Below are positions 419 through 19,824 of a stretch of DNA of 64,000 bases, one piece after another. The notes below the pieces were generated by a model. That model was not told where the DNA came from. It saw only the letters and a program-made list of their open reading frames with translations, and did no database searches. Source of the stretch: Puniceicoccaceae bacterium 5H (GTDB taxonomy: Bacteria; Verrucomicrobiota; Verrucomicrobiia; Opitutales; Oceanipulchritudinaceae). The DNA is taken from positions 62,001 to 126,000 of the forward strand of contig WOUP01000008.1 in NCBI GenBank assembly GCA_009772895.1, in the 5' to 3' direction. The stretch's first letter is position 1. Each line of letters begins with the position of its first letter. Position numbers and translations under genes: made by a program.

Positions 419-1738
419 ATGGAAACGGCTACCGCTCCGCAACGCCTCACACCGGGCGAGATCAATCTGGAAAACCACCCGTGCTTCAACCGGGACGTGT
501 GCCACAAGGTCGGGCGCATCCACCTGCCCGTGGCGCCGCAGTGCAACATCCAGTGCAACTACTGCAACCGCAAGTTCGACTGCGTCAACGAAAGCCGTCC
601 GGGCGTCACCTCTACCATCCTTTCTCCCGGCCAGGCCCTCGCCTACCTCGACAGCATCATGGACCTGCGCGACGACATCACCGTCGTCGGCATCGCTGGC
701 CCGGGCGATCCCTTTGCCAACCCGGAAGCCACGATGGAGACCTTCCGGCTCGTGCGCGCCAAGTATCCGGAGATGATCCTCTGCCTGTCGACCAACGGTC
801 TCGGCCTGACGGAGGCCTATGTGCAGGAACTGGCGGAACTGCAAGTGAGCCACGTCACGTTGACCATCAACGCGGTCGATCCGGCGATCGGGGGCCAGGT
901 GTATGCCTGGGCGCGCCAGAACAAGCGCATTTTCCGCCACGAGCAAGCCGGCGCGCTGATGATCGAACACCAGATGCAGGCGCTGCGCTGGATCAAGCAG
1001 TATGGCATGATCGCCAAGGTCAACTCCATCATCGTGCCGGGCGTCAACGACACCCATATCCCGGAAATTGCCAAGGAAGTGGCCGCGATGGGGGCCGACC
1101 TCATGAACTGCATCCCGCTGCTGCCGACCGCCGATACCGCTTTTGCCGACCTTCCAGAGCCGGATGCTAAAATGCGCTTCCGCGTGCGCACCCTCTGCGG
1201 CGAACACGTCAACCAGATGACGCACTGCGCACGGTGCCGCGCGGACGCCATCGGCCGACTGAGCGAGCCGATGACCGAAGAGATCCAGGCCCTGATCCAG
1301 CGCAGCGCGCGCCTGCCGATCAACCCGCAGGAATCGCGCCCCTACGTCGCCGTCGCCACCCGCGAGGGCATGCTCGTCAACCGCCACCTCGGTGAGACGA
1401 TGGTCTTCACCGTCTACGGCGTGGACCCGGAGGATGAGGAAGAGTTCACCATCGTCGGCACGCGCAAGGCCCCGCCCACGGGCGGCCGCGACGACCGCTG
1501 GAAGGAGCTCGCCGAGACGCTGCACGACTGCCGTGCCGTGCTCGTGGCCGCCTCGGGCAGCACGCCCAAAAAGGTGCTCACGGACGCCGGCATCCAGGTG
1601 ATCGAGATGGAGGGCCTGATCGAGTTCGGCCTGCGCCACCTCTTCCATGGCGAGACGCTACCGCCCAACCTGCAACGCAGCTTCCAGGGCTGCGGCAAGG
1701 GCCTGACCTGCGGCGGCGACGGCATGGGCTGCGGTTGA
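419..1738 (+). CDS. nifB: NifB, radical SAM FeMo-cofactor biosynthesis protein with NifX-like tail domain
   Basis: NifB fuses two [4Fe-4S] units and inserts a carbide from S-adenosylmethionine to make NifB-co, the precursor of all nitrogenase cofactors. The 439-residue protein has the radical SAM motif CNIQCNYC (Cys42, Cys46, Cys49) followed by 'NRKFDCVNESRPG', typical of NifB, and further family cysteines in 'HCARCRADA'. Residues about 315-425 resemble the NifX/NafY cofactor-binding domain, so this is the two-domain form. The last 16 residues are unusually rich in Gly and Cys, with three cysteines. It follows the nifN-like gene by 19 bases and is probably co-transcribed with it. Confidence 0.96.
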   Translation: METATAPQRLTPGEINLENHPCFNRDVCHKVGRIHLPVAPQCNIQCNYCNRKFDCVNESRPGVTSTILSPGQALAYLDSIMDLRDDITVVGIAGPGDPFANPEATMETFRLVRAKYPEMILCLSTNGLGLTEAYVQELAELQVSHVTLTINAVDPAIGGQVYAWARQNKRIFRHEQAGALMIEHQMQALRWIKQYGMIAKVNSIIVPGVNDTHIPEIAKEVAAMGADLMNCIPLLPTADTAFADLPEPDAKMRFRVRTLCGEHVNQMTHCARCRADAIGRLSEPMTEEIQALIQRSARLPINPQESRPYVAVATREGMLVNRHLGETMVFTVYGVDPEDEEEFTIVGTRKAPPTGGRDDRWKELAETLHDCRAVLVAASGSTPKKVLTDAGIQVIEMEGLIEFGLRHLFHGETLPPNLQRSFQGCGKGLTCGGDGMGCG

Positions 1739-1789: not shown

Positions 1790-2281
1790 ATGAAACCGGA
1801 AGTTAAGACAGCGCTGAACGAGCAATACCTGCACGAATTGGGAGCCGCCCACGCCTACCGCGCGCTCGCCTGCTGGTGCGCCTTTAACAGCTACAACGGC
1901 TTCGCCGAGTTCTTTAACAAGCAGAGCGAGGAAGAGCTGGAGCACGCCGAGATGTTCTCGGATTACCTGCTCGACCGCGGCGAAATGCCCGAAGTCGGCG
2001 CGCTGCCCGCTCCCCGCACCGAGTTCCAGAACCTCACCGCGGTTGCCGAGCAGGCCGGCATCATGGAGCGCGCCAATTCCAAGGGCATCGACGAATGCTA
2101 TCGCATCGCGCTCGAAGTCGCGGACTACGCCACCCAGGTCTTCCTGCACGACCTCATCTCCGAGCAGGTCGAGGAAGAAGCCTGGTGCGCCACGATGCTC
2201 GACAAGGTCAAGCAGGCTACCTGCGCCGGAGCCCTCCTCACGCTCGACCGCCACATCGTCAAGGAACTGGCCGAGGAATAA
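1790..2281 (+). CDS. Ferritin-like diiron protein in the nif cluster
   Basis: This 163-residue, all-helical protein has the length and spacing of a bacterial non-haem ferritin. Helix 1 carries a Glu in 'NEQYLHELGAAHAYRA', the next helix has an E-x-x-H type motif in 'SEEELEHAEMFSDYL', and helix 4 has 'SEQVEEEAWCA'. These are the positions expected for ferroxidase-centre carboxylates and histidine. The likely role is iron storage or detoxification in the cytoplasm, here supplying or buffering iron for nitrogenase cofactors. It sits 51 bases after nifB and 28 bases before a ferredoxin gene. A related ferritin-like fold with another role cannot be excluded. Confidence 0.85.
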   Translation: MKPEVKTALNEQYLHELGAAHAYRALACWCAFNSYNGFAEFFNKQSEEELEHAEMFSDYLLDRGEMPEVGALPAPRTEFQNLTAVAEQAGIMERANSKGIDECYRIALEVADYATQVFLHDLISEQVEEEAWCATMLDKVKQATCAGALLTLDRHIVKELAEE

Positions 2282-2625: not shown

Positions 2626-2838
2626 ATGAAGATCACCGCGCGCAACCAGCTGCTTGGCAAGGTCACCGCCATCACGCTCGGCCCCATCAACGCCGAAGTC
2701 ACGCTGGAGCTCGCAGGCGGGCTCCAGATCACCTCCATCGTCACCCGCCACGCGGTGGAGAGCCTGCAACTGGAGGTCGGCAAGACCGCCTGTGCCCTCA
2801 TCAAAGCCAGCAACGTCATGCTCGGAGTTGAAGAATGA
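2626..2838 (+). CDS. Mop/TOBE-domain molybdate-binding protein (molbindin)
   Basis: A 70-residue protein made of a single TOBE (Mop) domain: 'SARNQLLGKV'-like start (here 'TARNQLLGKVTAITLG'), then 'NAEVTLELAGG', 'ITSIVTRHAVESL' and 'ALIKASNVMLGV'. Members of this family assemble into rings that bind molybdate and act as a cytoplasmic Mo store or shuttle. In a nif cluster it would hold molybdenum for FeMo-cofactor. Its stop overlaps the nifV start by four bases (ATGA), which implies translational coupling and links Mo handling to homocitrate synthesis, the two late ingredients of the cofactor. Confidence 0.92.
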   Translation: MKITARNQLLGKVTAITLGPINAEVTLELAGGLQITSIVTRHAVESLQLEVGKTACALIKASNVMLGVEE

Positions 2839-3968
2839 ACTTTGCCCAGACCACGCCCTACCTGATCGATACCACGCTGCGCGACGGCGAGCAGGCCGCG
2901 GGCGTTGTCTTTGTATTGAGTGAAAAGATGAACATTGCCGCCGCCCTGGCAGAAGCCGGGATCCCCGAGCTTGAAGTCGGGATCCCTGCCATGGGCGCGG
3001 AAGAGGTGACGCATATCCGCAGCATCGTCCAGATGGGGTTGCCCTGTCGCATCCTGACGTGGGGGCGCGCCCATCTGGACGATCTGCATGCGGCCGTCGA
3101 CACCTGTGCGCACGGCTTCCACTTTTCCCTGCCCGTGAGCCCCATCCACCTCCGCGCCTGGGGCAAGACGCAGGACTGGGTCTTCACCACCCTCGCGCGC
3201 ATCGCGCATGAGGCGAAGGATTACTTTGAATACTTTTCCGTCGGGGCTCAGGACGCCTCCCGCGCCGACCTCGACTTTCTGCAGGAGTTTGCCCAGGCCG
3301 TGCAGGCGTGCGGTGCTTCCCGCCTGCGACTGGCCGACACTGTGGGCTGCCTCTCACCCTTGACGACGGCGCAGCTGCTGCAGGGCGTGCGCCAGGCCAG
3401 CCCGGAGCTGCCGCTGGAGTTTCACGGTCACAACGACCTGGGCATGGCCACCGCCAATACCGTCACCGCCCTGCAAACCGGAGCCGCGGCCGCCAGCGTG
3501 ACCGTCAACGGCCTGGGCGAACGCGCAGGCAATGCCGCCCTGGAGGAAGTTTCGATGGCAATGAAGCTGACCGCGCAGCGCGACCTGGGGTTGCACACCG
3601 AACGCTTTTACCGCCTGAGCGAACTCGTCAGCCACGCCTCGGGGCGCAGCCTGCGCGAAGACAAGCCCATCGTCGGCCCCGCCGCCTTTCGCCACGAGTC
3701 GGGCATCCACCTGCGCGGCCTGGCCAGCGACCGCGCCACCTACGAAGCCTTCACCCCGGCGCAAGTAGGCGTTCGGGAGACCGAATTCGTTTCCGGACGC
3801 CACTCGGGCTCCGCCGGGCTGGTGGCCATCGCCCGCGACGCTGGCATCGCCCTCGACCGCGATCAGGCCACGCGCCTGCTACCTCGGCTACGCGACCGTG
3901 CCCTTTCCTTGAAACGCGGGCTCACGACCAGCGAGCTCGCCGCTCTCATCGTCGAATCCACCGTCTGA
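2835..3968 (+). CDS. nifV: Homocitrate synthase NifV
   Basis: NifV condenses acetyl-CoA with 2-oxoglutarate to homocitrate, the organic ligand of FeMo-cofactor. The 377-residue product has the LeuA/NifV DRE-TIM barrel signatures: 'DTTLRDGEQ' at residues 12-20 and 'HGHNDLGMA' with the metal-binding His197 and His199, followed by 'NGLGERAGNAALEEV'. The length matches NifV and is shorter than 2-isopropylmalate synthase, which has an extra regulatory domain absent here. Having its own nifV means the cell can make Mo-nitrogenase cofactor without outside homocitrate. The start overlaps mop by four bases. Confidence 0.95.
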   Translation: MNFAQTTPYLIDTTLRDGEQAAGVVFVLSEKMNIAAALAEAGIPELEVGIPAMGAEEVTHIRSIVQMGLPCRILTWGRAHLDDLHAAVDTCAHGFHFSLPVSPIHLRAWGKTQDWVFTTLARIAHEAKDYFEYFSVGAQDASRADLDFLQEFAQAVQACGASRLRLADTVGCLSPLTTAQLLQGVRQASPELPLEFHGHNDLGMATANTVTALQTGAAAASVTVNGLGERAGNAALEEVSMAMKLTAQRDLGLHTERFYRLSELVSHASGRSLREDKPIVGPAAFRHESGIHLRGLASDRATYEAFTPAQVGVRETEFVSGRHSGSAGLVAIARDAGIALDRDQATRLLPRLRDRALSLKRGLTTSELAALIVESTV

Positions 3969-3986: not shown

Positions 3987-4502
3987 ATGGCCTTCTGGAT
4001 TTACCAACGTCAAGACACCACGGAAACCGTCAGCTTCCGCCGCCAGCGCATGATCCGCCTCTCCGGTGAGGAAGGTATCATCGCCGGATTTCTCCGCTTC
4101 CACGCTCAAGCCGACTCGCCCTGGAGCTGGGAATTGCCGGCGGGCCCCCTGCGCCAACTGGCGACGCCCGGCACAGGCTGGAAGGAGACGGAGGTCGTGA
4201 TCGAGCTGAAGGACCGCACCACCGGCGTCTACCACCTGCACCGCATCGTGGGCCTGCACGGGCACTCCGACACCCGCGATACCGACCTGGTGCTCACGCT
4301 TTGCAGCCTCTATCAGGCCAAAGACCGCGACGCGCTCGAAGCCTTCGAAGTCCCACTACCGATGGACGAACGCCGCATGCTCGAAGCCCTCGGGCTCACG
4401 GGTGGCCTCAGCGGCGGCACCTTCCACTGGTGTGCGCCCAAGATGAACATCGGGGCGGCCATCATGCCGCCTGCCCACCGCGCACCGGCTCCCTGCGCCT
4501 GA
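3987..4502 (+). CDS. Unrecognised protein inside the nif run
   Basis: I do not recognise this 171-residue protein. It begins 18 bases after nifV on the same strand, so it is probably part of the nif transcript. The sequence is soluble, has no signal peptide or membrane segment, and looks like a compact alpha/beta protein: 'MAFWIYQRQDTTETVSFRR' at the start, a probable beta region around 'ETEVVIELKDRTTGVYHLHR', a helix 'TDLVLTLCSLYQAKDRDALEAF', and a Gly-rich 'LTGGLSGGTFHWCAPKMNIG' near the end with one Cys. The last dozen residues (Pro/Ala-rich) look poorly constrained. A nitrogenase accessory role is suggested by position only. Confidence 0.75.
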   Translation: MAFWIYQRQDTTETVSFRRQRMIRLSGEEGIIAGFLRFHAQADSPWSWELPAGPLRQLATPGTGWKETEVVIELKDRTTGVYHLHRIVGLHGHSDTRDTDLVLTLCSLYQAKDRDALEAFEVPLPMDERRMLEALGLTGGLSGGTFHWCAPKMNIGAAIMPPAHRAPAPCA

Positions 4503-4589: not shown

Positions 4590-5057
4590 ATGTCCGAACA
4601 TAAGCTTACCATTCTTTACGGAACGGAAACCGGCAACTGCCGCGGCCTCGCCCAAAAGGTGGCCGCCAAGGCCCAGAAGAACGGCCTCGAAGCCGATGTC
4701 TTCGACCTTGCCGCCTATTCCGTCGATCAACTCGCCGCGGTCGACAACCCGGTGCTGGTCATTATCTCGACCTGGGACGAGGGTGCGCCGCCGCCCAAGG
4801 CGCGGAAGTTCTGCGCCGATCTGCTCAGCCAGACGCCCGACCTCTCCGGCCTGTCTTACACCGTTCTCGCGCTCGGCGACACCGAGTACGAACAGTTCTG
4901 CGAGTGCGGTCGCCAAATCGATGCCCGTCTCGAAGAGCTGGGCGCCTCCTGCTGCCTCGAACGCACCGAACTGGGGGCCGACTTCATGGTCTCCTACATC
5001 GGGTGGTCGAAGAAGTTCTGGAAGCGCATGGCCGAGGTCTACGGCGTCGCCAAATAA
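4590..5057 (+). CDS. Flavodoxin (FMN electron carrier)
   Basis: The 155-residue protein is a single flavodoxin domain. The FMN phosphate loop is 'YGTETGNCRGLAQ' near residue 10, followed by 'ISTWDEGAPPPKARKF' and 'VLALGDTEYEQFCECG', which form the isoalloxazine-binding loops; the wording is closer to sulfite-reductase-type flavodoxin domains than to classical NifF. It lies 36 bases before nifJ on the same strand. The likely path is pyruvate to NifJ to this flavodoxin to dinitrogenase reductase, as in Klebsiella where NifF does this job. I withhold the name nifF because orthology cannot be shown from the window. Confidence 0.9.
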   Translation: MSEHKLTILYGTETGNCRGLAQKVAAKAQKNGLEADVFDLAAYSVDQLAAVDNPVLVIISTWDEGAPPPKARKFCADLLSQTPDLSGLSYTVLALGDTEYEQFCECGRQIDARLEELGASCCLERTELGADFMVSYIGWSKKFWKRMAEVYGVAK

Positions 5058-5093: not shown

Positions 5094-8675
<3,582 letters not shown>

Positions 8676-8736: not shown

Positions 8737-9666
8737 TTAAAGGCCGCAGGTTGCCACCAATTGGCTGAGCAGATCTTCAAACAGCTCCGGCCCGCGCAGC
8801 ATCTGGCGCCAGACCTCGGGAATGCCTGTCAGCCCGTGCCGGATCCCCGCGATGCCGCCCGCCACACAGGCCGTCGTATCGGTATCGTAGCCGAGCGCAA
8901 TGGCGGCGCGGACGACAGCCGCATACGTCTCCTCCGCGCAAGCCGCGCGGGCTGAATGGAGACAGTCGACGACGTAACCGCTACCGCCGGGCGCACCGAA
9001 CGGCAGCACTTCCTGCGTCAGCTCATCGAGGTAAATCGGGTGGTTGGCGTAGAGCTCGCGCAAGCGTTGCACCGCCCAACCCCAAGGTTCCGCTTGCTCC
9101 GCCAGCTCTGCCCGCGCCCAGAGACAATAGAGCGCACAGCACACCTGAGCGCGTGGGTGCGCATGGGTCACCAGCGACTGCAAATGCGCATCGCGGACCA
9201 GCGTCGCGTCGTCTCCCTGATGCCAAAGCGTCAGAGGCAGGGCACGCATGAGGGAGCCATTGCCGTTGTTGCGTTCACCGCGCAGACCGGATTGCGAGGG
9301 CGGCAGGCCTTGTTGCAAGCGCTGCAGCGCGAGGCTCGTTTGATTGCCGACATCGAACACCTGATGGCCGACCGCCATGTAGCCTTGTCGCAACCAAGCC
9401 TGCAATCGCTGCCCGAAGTCGGCCAGGTCGAGCTGCCCGCGGTCCAGTAATGAAGCCAACAGGCAGAGGGCCTGCGCCCCGTCGTCCGACCAGGTGCCCA
9501 GGGGCACGTGGCTGTAGGTGCGCACAAAACCCTGGGGCGGCACCATGTCGATCTGCTCACGGGGCGGCAACTCGTCGGGCTGACGAAACTCGTAGGGCAC
9601 GCCGCAGGCATCGGCCACCAGCAGGCCCCACAAGCCGCCGGCGATTCTGTCCTCTATAGCAATCAT
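8737..9666 (-). CDS. draG: ADP-ribosylglycohydrolase DraG (dinitrogenase reductase activating)
   Basis: DraG removes ADP-ribose from the modified arginine of NifH and reactivates nitrogenase. The 309-residue protein has the family's dinuclear-metal ligands: Glu26 in 'CGVPYEFRQP', 'WSDDGAQ' (Asp61, Asp62), and 'GYDTDTTACVAGGIAG' near the C-terminus (Asp261, Asp263, Thr264), plus 'RNNGNGSLMRALPL'. The domain family also includes hydrolases with other targets, but the gene lies 12 bases behind draT on the same strand, the classical draT-draG order, and faces a nif cluster, so DraG is the best call. Note Gly63 where many relatives have Thr or Ser after the Asp pair. Confidence 0.88.
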   Translation of the reverse strand: MIAIEDRIAGGLWGLLVADACGVPYEFRQPDELPPREQIDMVPPQGFVRTYSHVPLGTWSDDGAQALCLLASLLDRGQLDLADFGQRLQAWLRQGYMAVGHQVFDVGNQTSLALQRLQQGLPPSQSGLRGERNNGNGSLMRALPLTLWHQGDDATLVRDAHLQSLVTHAHPRAQVCCALYCLWARAELAEQAEPWGWAVQRLRELYANHPIYLDELTQEVLPFGAPGGSGYVVDCLHSARAACAEETYAAVVRAAIALGYDTDTTACVAGGIAGIRHGLTGIPEVWRQMLRGPELFEDLLSQLVATCGL

Positions 9667-9678
9667 GATGTTGGAAGC

Positions 9679-10470
9679 TCAGTAGAGCAGTTTTTTGACC
9701 CAATACTCTCCGCCCACGACCAGATACTCTTCTTCGCCCTTCAGCAGACTGTCTGGCAACAGGCCGCTGAAGAAAAACACTTTGACCAAAGGTATCCTGA
9801 CTTCCCATACGGTTGAGCCGAACTCCCAGGCAAACTCCCGGTTACTCGTAAACGAGCTCAGGTTGTTCATGCGCACACACTGGTGGCGCCGATCGCGCTG
9901 CTCCAGCAGCTCGTAGTCTTCGGCGTCGCACGTACCGCGGTAGAGCGTCAGCCAGCGCTCTCCAGGGTGGCGCCGCTCCATCTCATATTGGCAAAACTCA
10001 TACAGCAGATCCAGCTGCGAGTCGATGGCATTGGTGCGGGCGTGCCCGCGCATTCGATCGTAGGCGTAGGGCTGGTACTCCTCGCTGTTTTTGCTCAACA
10101 CACGCCCTCGGTGAAAGGTGGGCGGCATGCCCAGCCGACTCTCGACCCAGCCCTTGAGCACGGCCCCTTCGATCGTGTTGGAGTCGATTCCCCAACCACG
10201 CAGGTAGCGCACGTAGCTGTTGCGCAGGCTGCGGCGGGCATCGTTCTGGTGGTCGTTCCACTCGTGCAGCTTGAACTTCACCGTCATGAACTCGTTGAAG
10301 ACCTCACCCCGCCGCACGGGAGAATCGATGCCGTCGAGGCGCTCGAAGAGGAAGCGGTTGACCTGGCGCACGCCGTCGATCTCGATCTTGCGCGGGTCGT
10401 CGTTAAACTCCCACGAAGCGATCACCCACGGAGGAATGTTGCAGAGGTTGAACGTATGATCGGGGAACAT
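9679..10470 (-). CDS. draT: NAD+-dinitrogenase-reductase ADP-ribosyltransferase DraT
   Basis: DraT transfers ADP-ribose from NAD+ to one arginine of NifH, switching nitrogenase off on ammonium, dark or energy stress. Family features in the 263-residue product (from the chosen ATG) are 'NLCNIPPWVIAS' (8-19), 'KIEIDGVRQVNRFLFERL', 'LTLYRGTCDAEDYELL' with the R of the R-S-E triad near 178, 'SSFTSNREFAWEFG' (207 onward), and the acidic 'EEEYLVVGGEYWV' (Glu246-248). A longer frame reaches 10638, but the extra 56 residues look non-coding and the family starts just before 'NLCNIPP'. No good ribosome-binding site is seen at this ATG, so the start is tentative; the identity is not. Confidence 0.9.
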   Translation of the reverse strand: MFPDHTFNLCNIPPWVIASWEFNDDPRKIEIDGVRQVNRFLFERLDGIDSPVRRGEVFNEFMTVKFKLHEWNDHQNDARRSLRNSYVRYLRGWGIDSNTIEGAVLKGWVESRLGMPPTFHRGRVLSKNSEEYQPYAYDRMRGHARTNAIDSQLDLLYEFCQYEMERRHPGERWLTLYRGTCDAEDYELLEQRDRRHQCVRMNNLSSFTSNREFAWEFGSTVWEVRIPLVKVFFFSGLLPDSLLKGEEEYLVVGGEYWVKKLLY

Positions 10471-10788
10471 GCCCAGCCGATGAAGGAAAGGAGGCCCCCT
10501 GCTCCACCGCAGTCGCAGTACTACGCGGGCGGCGCCTCGTCGCATTCCAGTCAGACACCCGGTAAGGGAAGTGCAAGCCGCAGGTGCGCCGTTGATGCCG
10601 ATCGTGCATGACATTAGCCCCGCTGATGAAACTCGCATCCGCGGCTCAGACGACCCTCCACGCTTGAACCGCTCGTCAATGCGCTCTTGTCTGGCATTGT
10701 CGAAATGTCTGGCTCAAGGCTTGCCATGGCGCATGGCGTCCATTAGCAGTGCTTGAGCAACCTAAAACTGAAAATCAGTCCGCTTAAT
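10471..10788. other. Intergenic region between divergent draT and mdh
   Basis: This 318-base stretch separates divergent genes and should hold promoters for both. No gene is supported: the frames crossing it (including the upstream extension of draT) lack family features. A TGGC-N7-TTGC motif lies at 10710-10724. No TGT-N10-ACA NifA-type box was found. Confidence 0.6.
10710..10724 (+). promoter_or_regulatory. Possible sigma-54 type -24/-12 element upstream of mdh
   Basis: TGGCTCAAGGCTTGC keeps the GG and GC dinucleotides at the spacing of the sigma-54 consensus (TGGCAC-N5-TTGC) with one mismatch in the first block. It would read toward mdh, ending 64 bases before its ATG. No activator site is visible, and one such match can arise by chance. 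Confidence 0.25.
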
Positions 10789-17190: not shown

Positions 17191-19824
17191 ATGGCCCGTG
17201 CTTGTGAAGATTTCTGCGCTTTGCCTGCCAAAGCGACCGACCTCGACCCGCAGACCACGCAGCAAACGATGCGCAAGGTCTACCTGCAGGGCGACTGCTT
17301 GCTGCGGCGGTTCATCACCTTTCACTTTCTGCTGTGCCTGGGCCTGGCGGGCTTCCACGACACTTGGGCGATTTCGGTCGGCGTCGGGCTGGTGGCGTTT
17401 TCCCTCTTTACCAGCTCCACGGTATTGCTGCCGGGGCACTGGGTCACACGCCAACTGGCCGGCATCAGCTTCCAGCTCTTCGTCGCACTGCACTTGTATC
17501 AGCTGCACGGGCTGCCGGAGATGCACTTTTTCTTCTTCGCCTCCATCGCGCTGCAGCTGGTGTATCAAGACGCCAAGGCATTCTGGGGCGGCACGGCCTT
17601 CATCGTCGTCTACTACCTCATTATCGCCAACCTGCAGAACCACGGCTGGCCGGTCTACTTTTCACCTGAGGCCCCCATCACCGCCTTTCAGCTGACCTTC
17701 CACCTCGGCATCATGCTGATCACGGTCGCCATTTGCAGCTATTGGGCGCGCCTCTTCCGCCAGCGCACCCTCGAGAGCGCGGCCATGCAGCAGTCCCTCA
17801 CCACCTTGAACCAGCAACTGCGGGACGAGCTGGATTTCCGCAAGCAGGCAGAGGTGGAAATCGTCTCCGCCAAACAGGCCGCCGAGTCTGCGAACCTGGC
17901 CAAAAGCGAGTTTCTCGCCAACATGAGCCACGAGATCCGCACGCCTATGAACAGCATGCTCGGGACGGCGGAACTGCTGCTGGACAGCGACCTGGCGACC
18001 GAGCAGCGCCGCATGGTGCGCACCATCCTCAATTCGAGCGACAACCTGCTGCGCCTGATCAACGACATCCTCGACTTTTCGCGCATCGAGGCCAACCAGA
18101 TCGAGATCGAGGCCCGCCCCTTCTCCATTCGTGAACTGACGGAACAGGTCGTCATTTCCAGCCGACCGATCGCGGAAAAGAAGGGGCTGAAGCTGCATGT
18201 TTCGGTCCACCAAAACGTGGCTAGCGCCTACTGCGGAGACGCGTTTCGCATCCGCCAGGTGCTGCTCAACCTGATCAGCAACGCGGTCAAGTTTACCGAG
18301 CGCGGACACGTGGAGGTGCAGCTGTCAGCCTCGGGGCAGCAGCTCAGCATTAGCGTGAAGGACACCGGCATCGGCATTTCGCCGGAAGCGCAAGCCCGCA
18401 TCTTCACCAAGTTCACGCAGGCAGATGCGTCCACCCAGCGGCGTTACGGCGGCAGCGGCCTGGGCCTGGCGATCAGCAAGCGCCTGGTGGACTTGATGGG
18501 CGGCAGGATCTCCCTCGAAAGCGTGGAGGGCATCGGCAGCAAGTTTAGCGTGCAGTTGCCCCTACCGGAAGCAAACCCGCAGGAGATCGAACGCGCCGAC
18601 CCACACCTGCCGGCGGTGTGTGCCTTCCCGAACAGTCGGGTGCTCGTGGTGGAGGACCACGACCCGAACTTTGAGGTCATCGAGATGATGCTCAGCTCGC
18701 TCGAAGTGAAGGCAGAGCTGGCCAGCAACGGCGAGGAGGCAATCGACTGCTTGCTGCGGTCGGGGGAAGAATACGACCTGGTGCTGATGGACTTGCATAT
18801 GCCGGTGATGGATGGGCTTTCCGCCACGCGGGAGCTGCGGCAACGCGGCTTCAGCCAGCCGATCGTCGCCCTGACCGCCAGCACCCAGCACGAAGAGATG
18901 GAACGTGCCCGGGCCGCCGGTATGCAGGGTTTTCTGACCAAGCCCCTGCGCCGCGCCGAACTCATCCAGTGCCTGAGCGCACACCTGAGCACCGCGACTT
19001 CTCAATCCCCGAGCACGCCCCCACCTGCGCCCGGTCTTTCGCCAGCCCCCACCGACTCCATCGAGGGCCTGGTGGTGCATTTGAACCGCTCGTGGGCCGA
19101 GAACGAGTGGCCGCTGCCGCCCAGCCGCATCCGGCGCTGGATCCTCGGCTTCGTTGTCTCCATGCGCCACAGCCTCGCCCACTTGCGACAGGCGCAAGAC
19201 CTGCAGGACACGGAAAACCTGGTGCACGAAGCGCACAAACTAGCCGGTGCCAGCGGTTACCTGCACGCGGACGACATGGCCGCCACGGCCCGCCGACTCG
19301 AGGAAATCGCCAAAGATGCGTCTCAGCAGGAGACCGAGACATTGATCCATCAACTGGAGCGTCAGGAAAAACACGTGCACGAAGCCCTGCGGCATCCGGA
19401 TTTTCTTTACCACCTGCGCACCATCCTGCCGCTCAAGGTGACCTGCCTGCCCGACAGTGCCTTTGCCGAGGACGTGCTGCGTGGTCAGGTCGAACAACTG
19501 GGCTGGTCCGTCAAGCTCTGGGAAAAGGGCCGTCCCGCGGCCTCGACCCTCATTCTGGCGCTCGCCGCTGACTTGCCGAGGATCAAGCAGCAACTCGAAG
19601 CCGACACCGCCTGGCACTTGCTGCTCTGGCCGGGAGACGATGCCGATCGCGCGGATGACGAAGAGGAAATGGATTGGCCGGCGGCCTGGACGCTGACGAT
19701 CTTTACCGAAGCACCCGCCTCGGCCGCCGACTTGCGCAACCAACTGGAGCGGGCCTGGAAGGAGCATCCGCTGCCGCCGGAGGCCGAGGAAGACGCCCGC
19801 GCCGATGCCGCCATCGGGAATTAA
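17191..19824 (+). CDS. Membrane hybrid histidine kinase (HisKA-HATPase-REC-HPt)
   Basis: An 877-residue hybrid sensor. Residues about 40-190 carry several hydrophobic segments and form a membrane sensor without a recognised extracytoplasmic domain. A coiled linker leads to the HisKA box '[10 protein letters not shown]' with His247, then the ATPase with '[12 protein letters not shown]', 'DTGIGI' and '[11 protein letters not shown]', a receiver with phospho-acceptor Asp534 in '[13 protein letters not shown]', and an HPt domain with '[12 protein letters not shown]' (His682). A further 130 residues follow the HPt and look like a degenerate receiver. No output regulator lies next to it, so the final target is unknown. 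An in-frame ATG at residue 27 is an alternative start. Confidence 0.9.

Follow-up and report, generated by a model that had tools for sequence, protein, structure and literature searches.

The position normally held by draG, beside the nif cluster of Puniceicoccaceae bacterium 5H, is occupied by an ADP-ribosylglycohydrolase of another lineage, which directly follows the gene for a genuine dinitrogenase reductase ADP-ribosyltransferase (DraT). Reversible ADP-ribosylation of NifH is among the best-studied bacterial signaling switches, and the prevailing model has PII and AmtB retaining the eraser, DraG, at the membrane. The two genes described here lie in a 64,000-nucleotide stretch of DNA (the window) and probably constitute a nitrogenase switch built on DraT in which the eraser is non-orthologous, a function deduced from genomic evidence. 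The lineage of the window hydrolase is labeled W type; gene context and bit scores supplied the names of the hydrolase groups before any tree was considered.

Both frames lie where a sequence-only reading of the window had placed them, adjoining on the minus strand and converging on nifJ (Table 1). draT comes first, with a gap of 12 bases to the hydrolase gene. A longer ATG start for the draT frame is present at 10638; the DRAT family match begins only at residue 63 of this longer frame, and the start in Table 1 is therefore the likely one. The hairpin described by the same reading as common to nifJ and the draT-hydrolase pair was confirmed as an inverted repeat between the two stops. Its folding z is -3.9, with none of 200 shuffles equally stable, and it is probably a bidirectional terminator of nifJ and the hydrolase gene. 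The nif cluster immediately upstream in the same genome comprises a NifA-type sigma-54 activator, nifH, nifDKEN, nifB-X, nifV, flavodoxin, and nifJ, in which nifDKEN denotes four proteins of the nitrogenase-component-1 family named from gene order. Sigma-54 promoter matches were not above chance, either in the window or in L005, and none lay upstream of draT.

Table 1. Features of the draT-hydrolase locus and the neighboring nif genes in the window
Feature	Position	Strand	Evidence
draT, NAD+-dinitrogenase-reductase ADP-ribosyltransferase	9679..10470	-	263 aa; PF07357 367 bits; R178/S206/E246/E248 invariant
W-type ADP-ribosylglycohydrolase, in place of draG	8737..9666	-	309 aa; PF03747 216 bits; TIGR02662 92.6 bits
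Perfect 11-bp inverted repeat	8701-8711/8720-8730		Between the stops of nifJ and the draG position
nifJ, pyruvate:ferredoxin (flavodoxin) oxidoreductase	5094..8675	+	TIGR02176 1687 bits; convergent with draT and hydrolase
Flavodoxin of the nif cluster	4590..5057	+	PF00258; kept beside nifJ or draT in relatives
nifV, homocitrate synthase	2835..3968	+	TIGR02660 439 bits, slightly below cut-off 463
nifB with C-terminal NifX-like domain	419..1738	+	TIGR01290 358 bits, above cut-off; PF02579
Ferritin-like protein within the nif cluster	1790..2281	+	PF00210

Additional genes of the window were recorded. The interval between nifV and flavodoxin holds a 171-aa protein (3987-4502) with no Pfam or NCBIfam match; relatives with 32-36% identity occupy the equivalent place in L020, L021, L022, and L070, marking an unnamed nif-associated gene. 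L021 and L026 have relatives of the ferritin-like protein, at 50% identity, in their nif regions. At 17191-19824 lies a hybrid histidine kinase that includes receiver and Hpt domains and bears no relation to the draT finding.

Judged by RpoB, the host is a verrucomicrobium, as the sequence-only reading had supposed. Identity is 84% to Puniceicoccales bacterium Verruco_02 and 79-81% to six genomes of the host's order, and drops to 67-71% for five Verrucomicrobiota farther removed and to 56-57% for Geobacter and Anaeromyxobacter; RpoB was obtained from 16 of the 17 genomes searched, and a partial 16S gene that is present was left out. The same protein rules out an alphaproteobacterial host. One NifH was found in the host genome, and its target, Arg107 (the R within CAGRGI), stands in the context CAGRGIITS; the target arginine is also present in all nine draT genomes of a 387-genome sample of the phylum. 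The amtB and glnK (PII) genes lie side by side, with the PII gene after amtB on the same strand, so that the arginine with its flanks and the PII and AmtB genes, each proposed as a check by the earlier reading, were all found. Given DraT, the verrucomicrobial host, the NifH arginine, and the PII and AmtB genes, the post-translational nitrogenase control suggested in that reading is the likeliest function. The host genome also encodes a second, weaker PII-like protein (L010:1465-1833; 63.5 bits), the T-loop of which looks short.

The writer is conserved. Window DraT matches the DRAT family over positions 1-255 of 256, far above the cut-off of 25 bits. The four residues in Table 1, which correspond to the R-S-E type ADP-ribosyltransferase motif, are invariant in 10/10 and 32/32 aligned DraT proteins in two alignments. 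The top-ranked structure matches of the DraT model (pLDDT 86.8) are ADP-ribosyltransferases, all weak with Z of 5.0 at most, and a sequence search with DraT against solved structures returned a single match (E 0.089), unrelated by name. DraT has been assigned to the ARTC family (PMC7050489). Among the matches listed, the closest DraT proteins are verrucomicrobial and deltaproteobacterial, chiefly from Geobacterales, and are 55-65% identical; a quick tree of 47 of 90 DraT proteins did not separate a single clade of W-paired DraTs from several.

Of 590 candidate stretches from GTDB genomes, at least 564 encode a DraT relative, and the best 80 are by title mostly from Geobacterales or Desulfuromonadales. 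Together with reports of draG and draT in metagenome-assembled genomes (MAGs) of Verrucomicrobia and Acidobacteria in 2020 (PMC7341956) and in Geomonas (PMC10746287), this means that a range beyond Alphaproteobacteria, put forward as new in the earlier reading, was already on record. The phylum sample contains draT in nine of 387 genomes; a NifH match reaches E <= 1e-100 in 31 genomes, and these include all nine (hypergeometric 4e-11). All seven nifH genomes of the host's order carry draT; outside the order it is present in only two of 24, and the draT switch is therefore not general in the phylum.

The window hydrolase clears the PF03747 cut-off of 26.2 bits by a wide margin, and its score on the DRAG equivalog TIGR02662 falls below the cut-off of 337. 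Three other W types score 98-104 bits on this model and two proteins of a third type score 121 and 128.5, compared with 402-454 for four classical DraGs. On the Tri1 model NF041672 the window hydrolase reaches 120.5 bits, far under the cut-off of 490, yet above its DRAG score. An ordinary DraT/DraG system of the Rhodospirillum rubrum kind, as the sequence-only reading proposed, would agree with the gene order, the neighborhood, and the Pfam-level annotation; with the curated cut-off missed and the phylogeny against it, this explanation is barely credible, and it overlaps with the orthologue explanation weighed below. Of the draT-draG pair described in that reading, DraT is upheld, whereas the second gene is not a classical DraG by its curated score and its position outside the DraG clade.

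Phylogenetic analysis separates the W type from DraG. The midpoint-rooted hydrolase tree consists of 63 rows, with 15 of 28 classical DraGs plus two solved ones and with seven distant hydrolases removed. The W type (10 rows, support 93/97) groups with plasmid proteins of Paraburkholderia and Burkholderia. A supported branch (22 versus 41 rows, 100/98) places Lmo0067 and the third type on the W-type side; the classical DraG clade (17 rows, 100/100) excludes the W type and lies on the opposite side, with Tri1. In approximately unbiased (AU) tests, p was 0.000317 for W and classical types as one clade, 5e-5 for W and third types, 0.027 for third and classical types, and 4e-89 for all draT-linked hydrolases. 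Two eraser origins are firm, and a third is likely but weaker because of the value of 0.027. On these sequence comparisons, the window hydrolase is not an orthologue of characterized DraG and is assigned to another lineage of the same superfamily. By TIGR02662 score, tree, and AU test alike, the second gene falls with other ADP-ribosylglycohydrolases and not with DraG, an outcome that the sequence-only reading had named as contrary to its proposal. In two genomes from a different family, the gene immediately following draT belongs to the third hydrolase lineage (L026:8161-9177 in G186 and L027:8714-9697 in G023), and the tree groups it with hydrolases from genomes of the phylum that lack draT.

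The active site of the W type is intact at the positions expected of a two-metal hydrolase. Equivalents of R. rubrum DraG E28, D60, D61, D97, Y212, D243, D245, and T246 are present in 10/10 W types, with D60, D61, D243, D245, and T246 presumably the metal-binding residues; the metal ligands kept in the window hydrolase are E26, D61, D62, D261, D263, and T264. An offset of 5, which fits Asp97, Asn100, Glu121, and Tyr212, was applied to carry the R. rubrum DraG numbering over to the solved chain. Roles have been described for Asp97, for Glu121 in the ExxA adenine motif, and for Tyr212 (PMC7050489). The additional conserved aspartate, Asp97, corresponds to D105 in the window hydrolase and is present in all 10 W types; it is not exclusive to classical DraG, since Tri1 and Lmo0067 also have it. 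The ExxA motif reads ERNN in the window hydrolase, and E (six) or V (four) followed by RNN among the 10 W types, and several classical DraGs deviate too. Asn100, a predicted PII contact of R. rubrum DraG (PMC6067124), is Asn in seven and Ile in three of the 10 W types and is variable among classical DraGs as well.

The AlphaFold model of the hydrolase (pLDDT 85.9) has its best match in 8za7 (Z 37.4, 299 residues, 2.2 Å), and its match to R. rubrum DraG (2woc) is tied with others at Z 34.4; of the 39 listed structures with Z above 25, 35 have titles naming an ADP-ribosylhydrolase or a hydrolase. That the W type is a fast-evolving orthologue of classical DraG, with the swap a product of divergence or a long-branch artefact, is unlikely. 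The shared superfamily, a hydrolase gene after draT as in Rhodobacter, the retained metal ligands and DraG-associated Asp97, and the fit to 2woc are all compatible with such descent, but two draT genomes in the order to which the host belongs retain an unchanged classical DraG (402 and 422 bits on TIGR02662, against 93-104 for four W types). The AU values for a joint clade with classical DraG and for all draT-linked hydrolases also argue against it, no over-long end branches are listed in the tree, and the metal-site residues, DDG and DTDT in W types versus DDT and DADT in classical DraG, follow the other lineage.

Twenty-three draT genomes, consisting of all nine from the phylum sample and 14 from the best 80 relatives listed, have exactly one DraG-class hydrolase each: the W type in 11, all verrucomicrobial, the classical type in 10, and the third type in two. 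In the nine genomes of the phylum sample the DraG-class protein adjoins draT (W type in five, classical in two with draG before draT, third type in two); each of the 25 PF03747 matches in these genomes was set against six references, and those outside the DraG class scored 46 bits at most. The 14 further genomes include all six verrucomicrobial ones among the best 80 loci and eight picked from the other 74. The W type and no classical DraG occurs in 6/6 Verrucomicrobiota, and classical DraG and no W type in 8/8 genomes of Geobacterales, other Deltaproteobacteria, and Anaeromyxobacter, with 30 of 33 PF03747 matches scored and the three unscored ones weak (27-113 bits to PF03747). A classical DraG was also sought elsewhere in the host, where two PF03747 proteins were found; the second (C2:245290) scores 38 bits at most, with short, weak matches to the DraG references.

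The W type directly follows draT in 10 of the 11 W genomes, overlapping it by 1-4 bases in three. The exception is Verruco_02, the closest genome by RpoB, in which draT lies beside nifH and the W type, its only PF03747 protein, is on another contig; this protein is 57% identical to the window hydrolase and is not part of the W profile. The closely related LR76 and SCN18 share the order nifA-draT-W-nifHDKEN on one strand, and L020, L022, L055, and L070 have nifJ-draT-W on one strand. Around the best 80 DraT loci, the W type is nearby in five of six verrucomicrobial loci and in 0/74 others, of which 25 have a classical DraG nearby; the remaining 50 (Verruco_02 and 49 others) have no hydrolase in the stretch examined, some stretches being short. 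A W profile run over the 387 phylum genomes, with at most five candidates scored per genome, returned five at 542-604 bits, all draT-positive, and a next best of 224; the test is circular in part, since those same five sequences are contained in the profile. By genomic association, the W-type hydrolase looks like the partner of DraT.

A DraT that acts on NifH beside a hydrolase with another job, NifH reversal being carried out by something else or absent, is a further explanation with a small share of the probability. Such a job could be, for example, general removal of arginine-linked ADP-ribose or protection against foreign ADP-ribosylating toxins. The tree side and the best model match point to the hydrolase of an ADP-ribosyltransferase effector-immunity pair, and the superfamily is widespread without draT, 178 of the 387 genomes matching the W profile at some level. 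Against this, the W type co-occurs with draT in the phylum, sits inside nif operons, and is retained though unlinked in Verruco_02, and the W genomes examined contain no other DraG-class hydrolase. In line with another job, the nearest W-type homologue found outside Verrucomicrobiota is a Paraburkholderia plasmid protein (L178:5938-6924; 56% identical), and no DraT was found on that plasmid, so that the tie to DraT does not hold throughout the W lineage. The Paraburkholderia host is insect-associated, and its W-type relative adjoins a 218-aa protein and a sub-threshold YbjN match. The upstream 218-aa protein was considered as a writer and set aside, having no Pfam match.

As in the DraT-DraG systems of R. 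rubrum and Azospirillum brasilense, DraT has intact catalytic residues, NifH has the target arginine, draT is followed by a hydrolase gene, and PII and AmtB genes are in the genome; unlike in those systems, the eraser is non-orthologous, belongs to a clade of its own, has no ExxA motif, and varies at the PII-contact position. The draT-draG genes of other Verrucomicrobiota, Acidobacteria, and Geobacterales (PMC7341956, PMC10746287) have the same writer, whereas 25 non-verrucomicrobial loci among the best 80 listed and two genomes of the host's order carry classical DraG. Lmo0067 (PDB 8za7) and Tri1 (PDB 6dre), ADP-ribosylhydrolases of effector-immunity systems, share the fold and two-metal site with the W type, which falls on the Lmo0067 side of the supported branch and scores higher on the Tri1 than on the DRAG model. 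In contrast with both, the W type is just 26-27% identical in structural alignment, remains under the Tri1 cut-off, and lies beside draT and nif genes.

The co-occurrence of draT and draG has been surveyed (PMC5249018), Frankia is mentioned as having draG without draT (PMC12903952), and the accessible part of PMC7341956 does not divide draG into types. Strain LR76 was isolated from rice rhizome and is in cultivation (PMC7251102), and its nif genes beside draT were found here from sequence, with no mention of nif or nitrogenase in the available text of that paper. No report of a replaced or second-type DraG was found by title or abstract start among the papers listed from mainly open-access literature with few subscription papers; a draG position occupied by another hydrolase lineage is new as far as searched.

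By analogy with R. rubrum and A. brasilense, from which the reactions, the hydrolase substrate, and the GlnK/AmtB control are carried over, a rise in ammonium or a fall in energy would cause DraT to move ADP-ribose from NAD+ to Arg107 of NifH, and nitrogenase would stop. When fixation is needed again, the W-type hydrolase would take ADP-ribose off NifH via its two-metal site, as its kept active-site residues and model fit suggest, and the GlnK/AmtB pair may control the switch. In the best reading, the writer has been conserved and the eraser recruited separately at least twice, probably three times, a history suggesting that either half of the switch can be replaced in evolution independently of the other. 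A more speculative proposal, somewhat less likely than not, is that DraT is a portable writer for which an eraser was recruited three times, each time from a different ADP-ribosylglycohydrolase lineage (classical DraG, W type, and third type), and that the shut-off signal of the W type is other than PII-AmtB membrane capture.

With the writer kept and the eraser drawn from another lineage, the way in which reactivation is controlled must either be different or have been rebuilt, since the model for DraG depends on its retention at the membrane by PII and AmtB. Annotation with the curated DRAG model would class W-type genomes as draG-less. The W type offers a natural test of the features that a hydrolase requires to work on nitrogenase, and the cultivation of a W-type host, LR76, makes this question open to testing.
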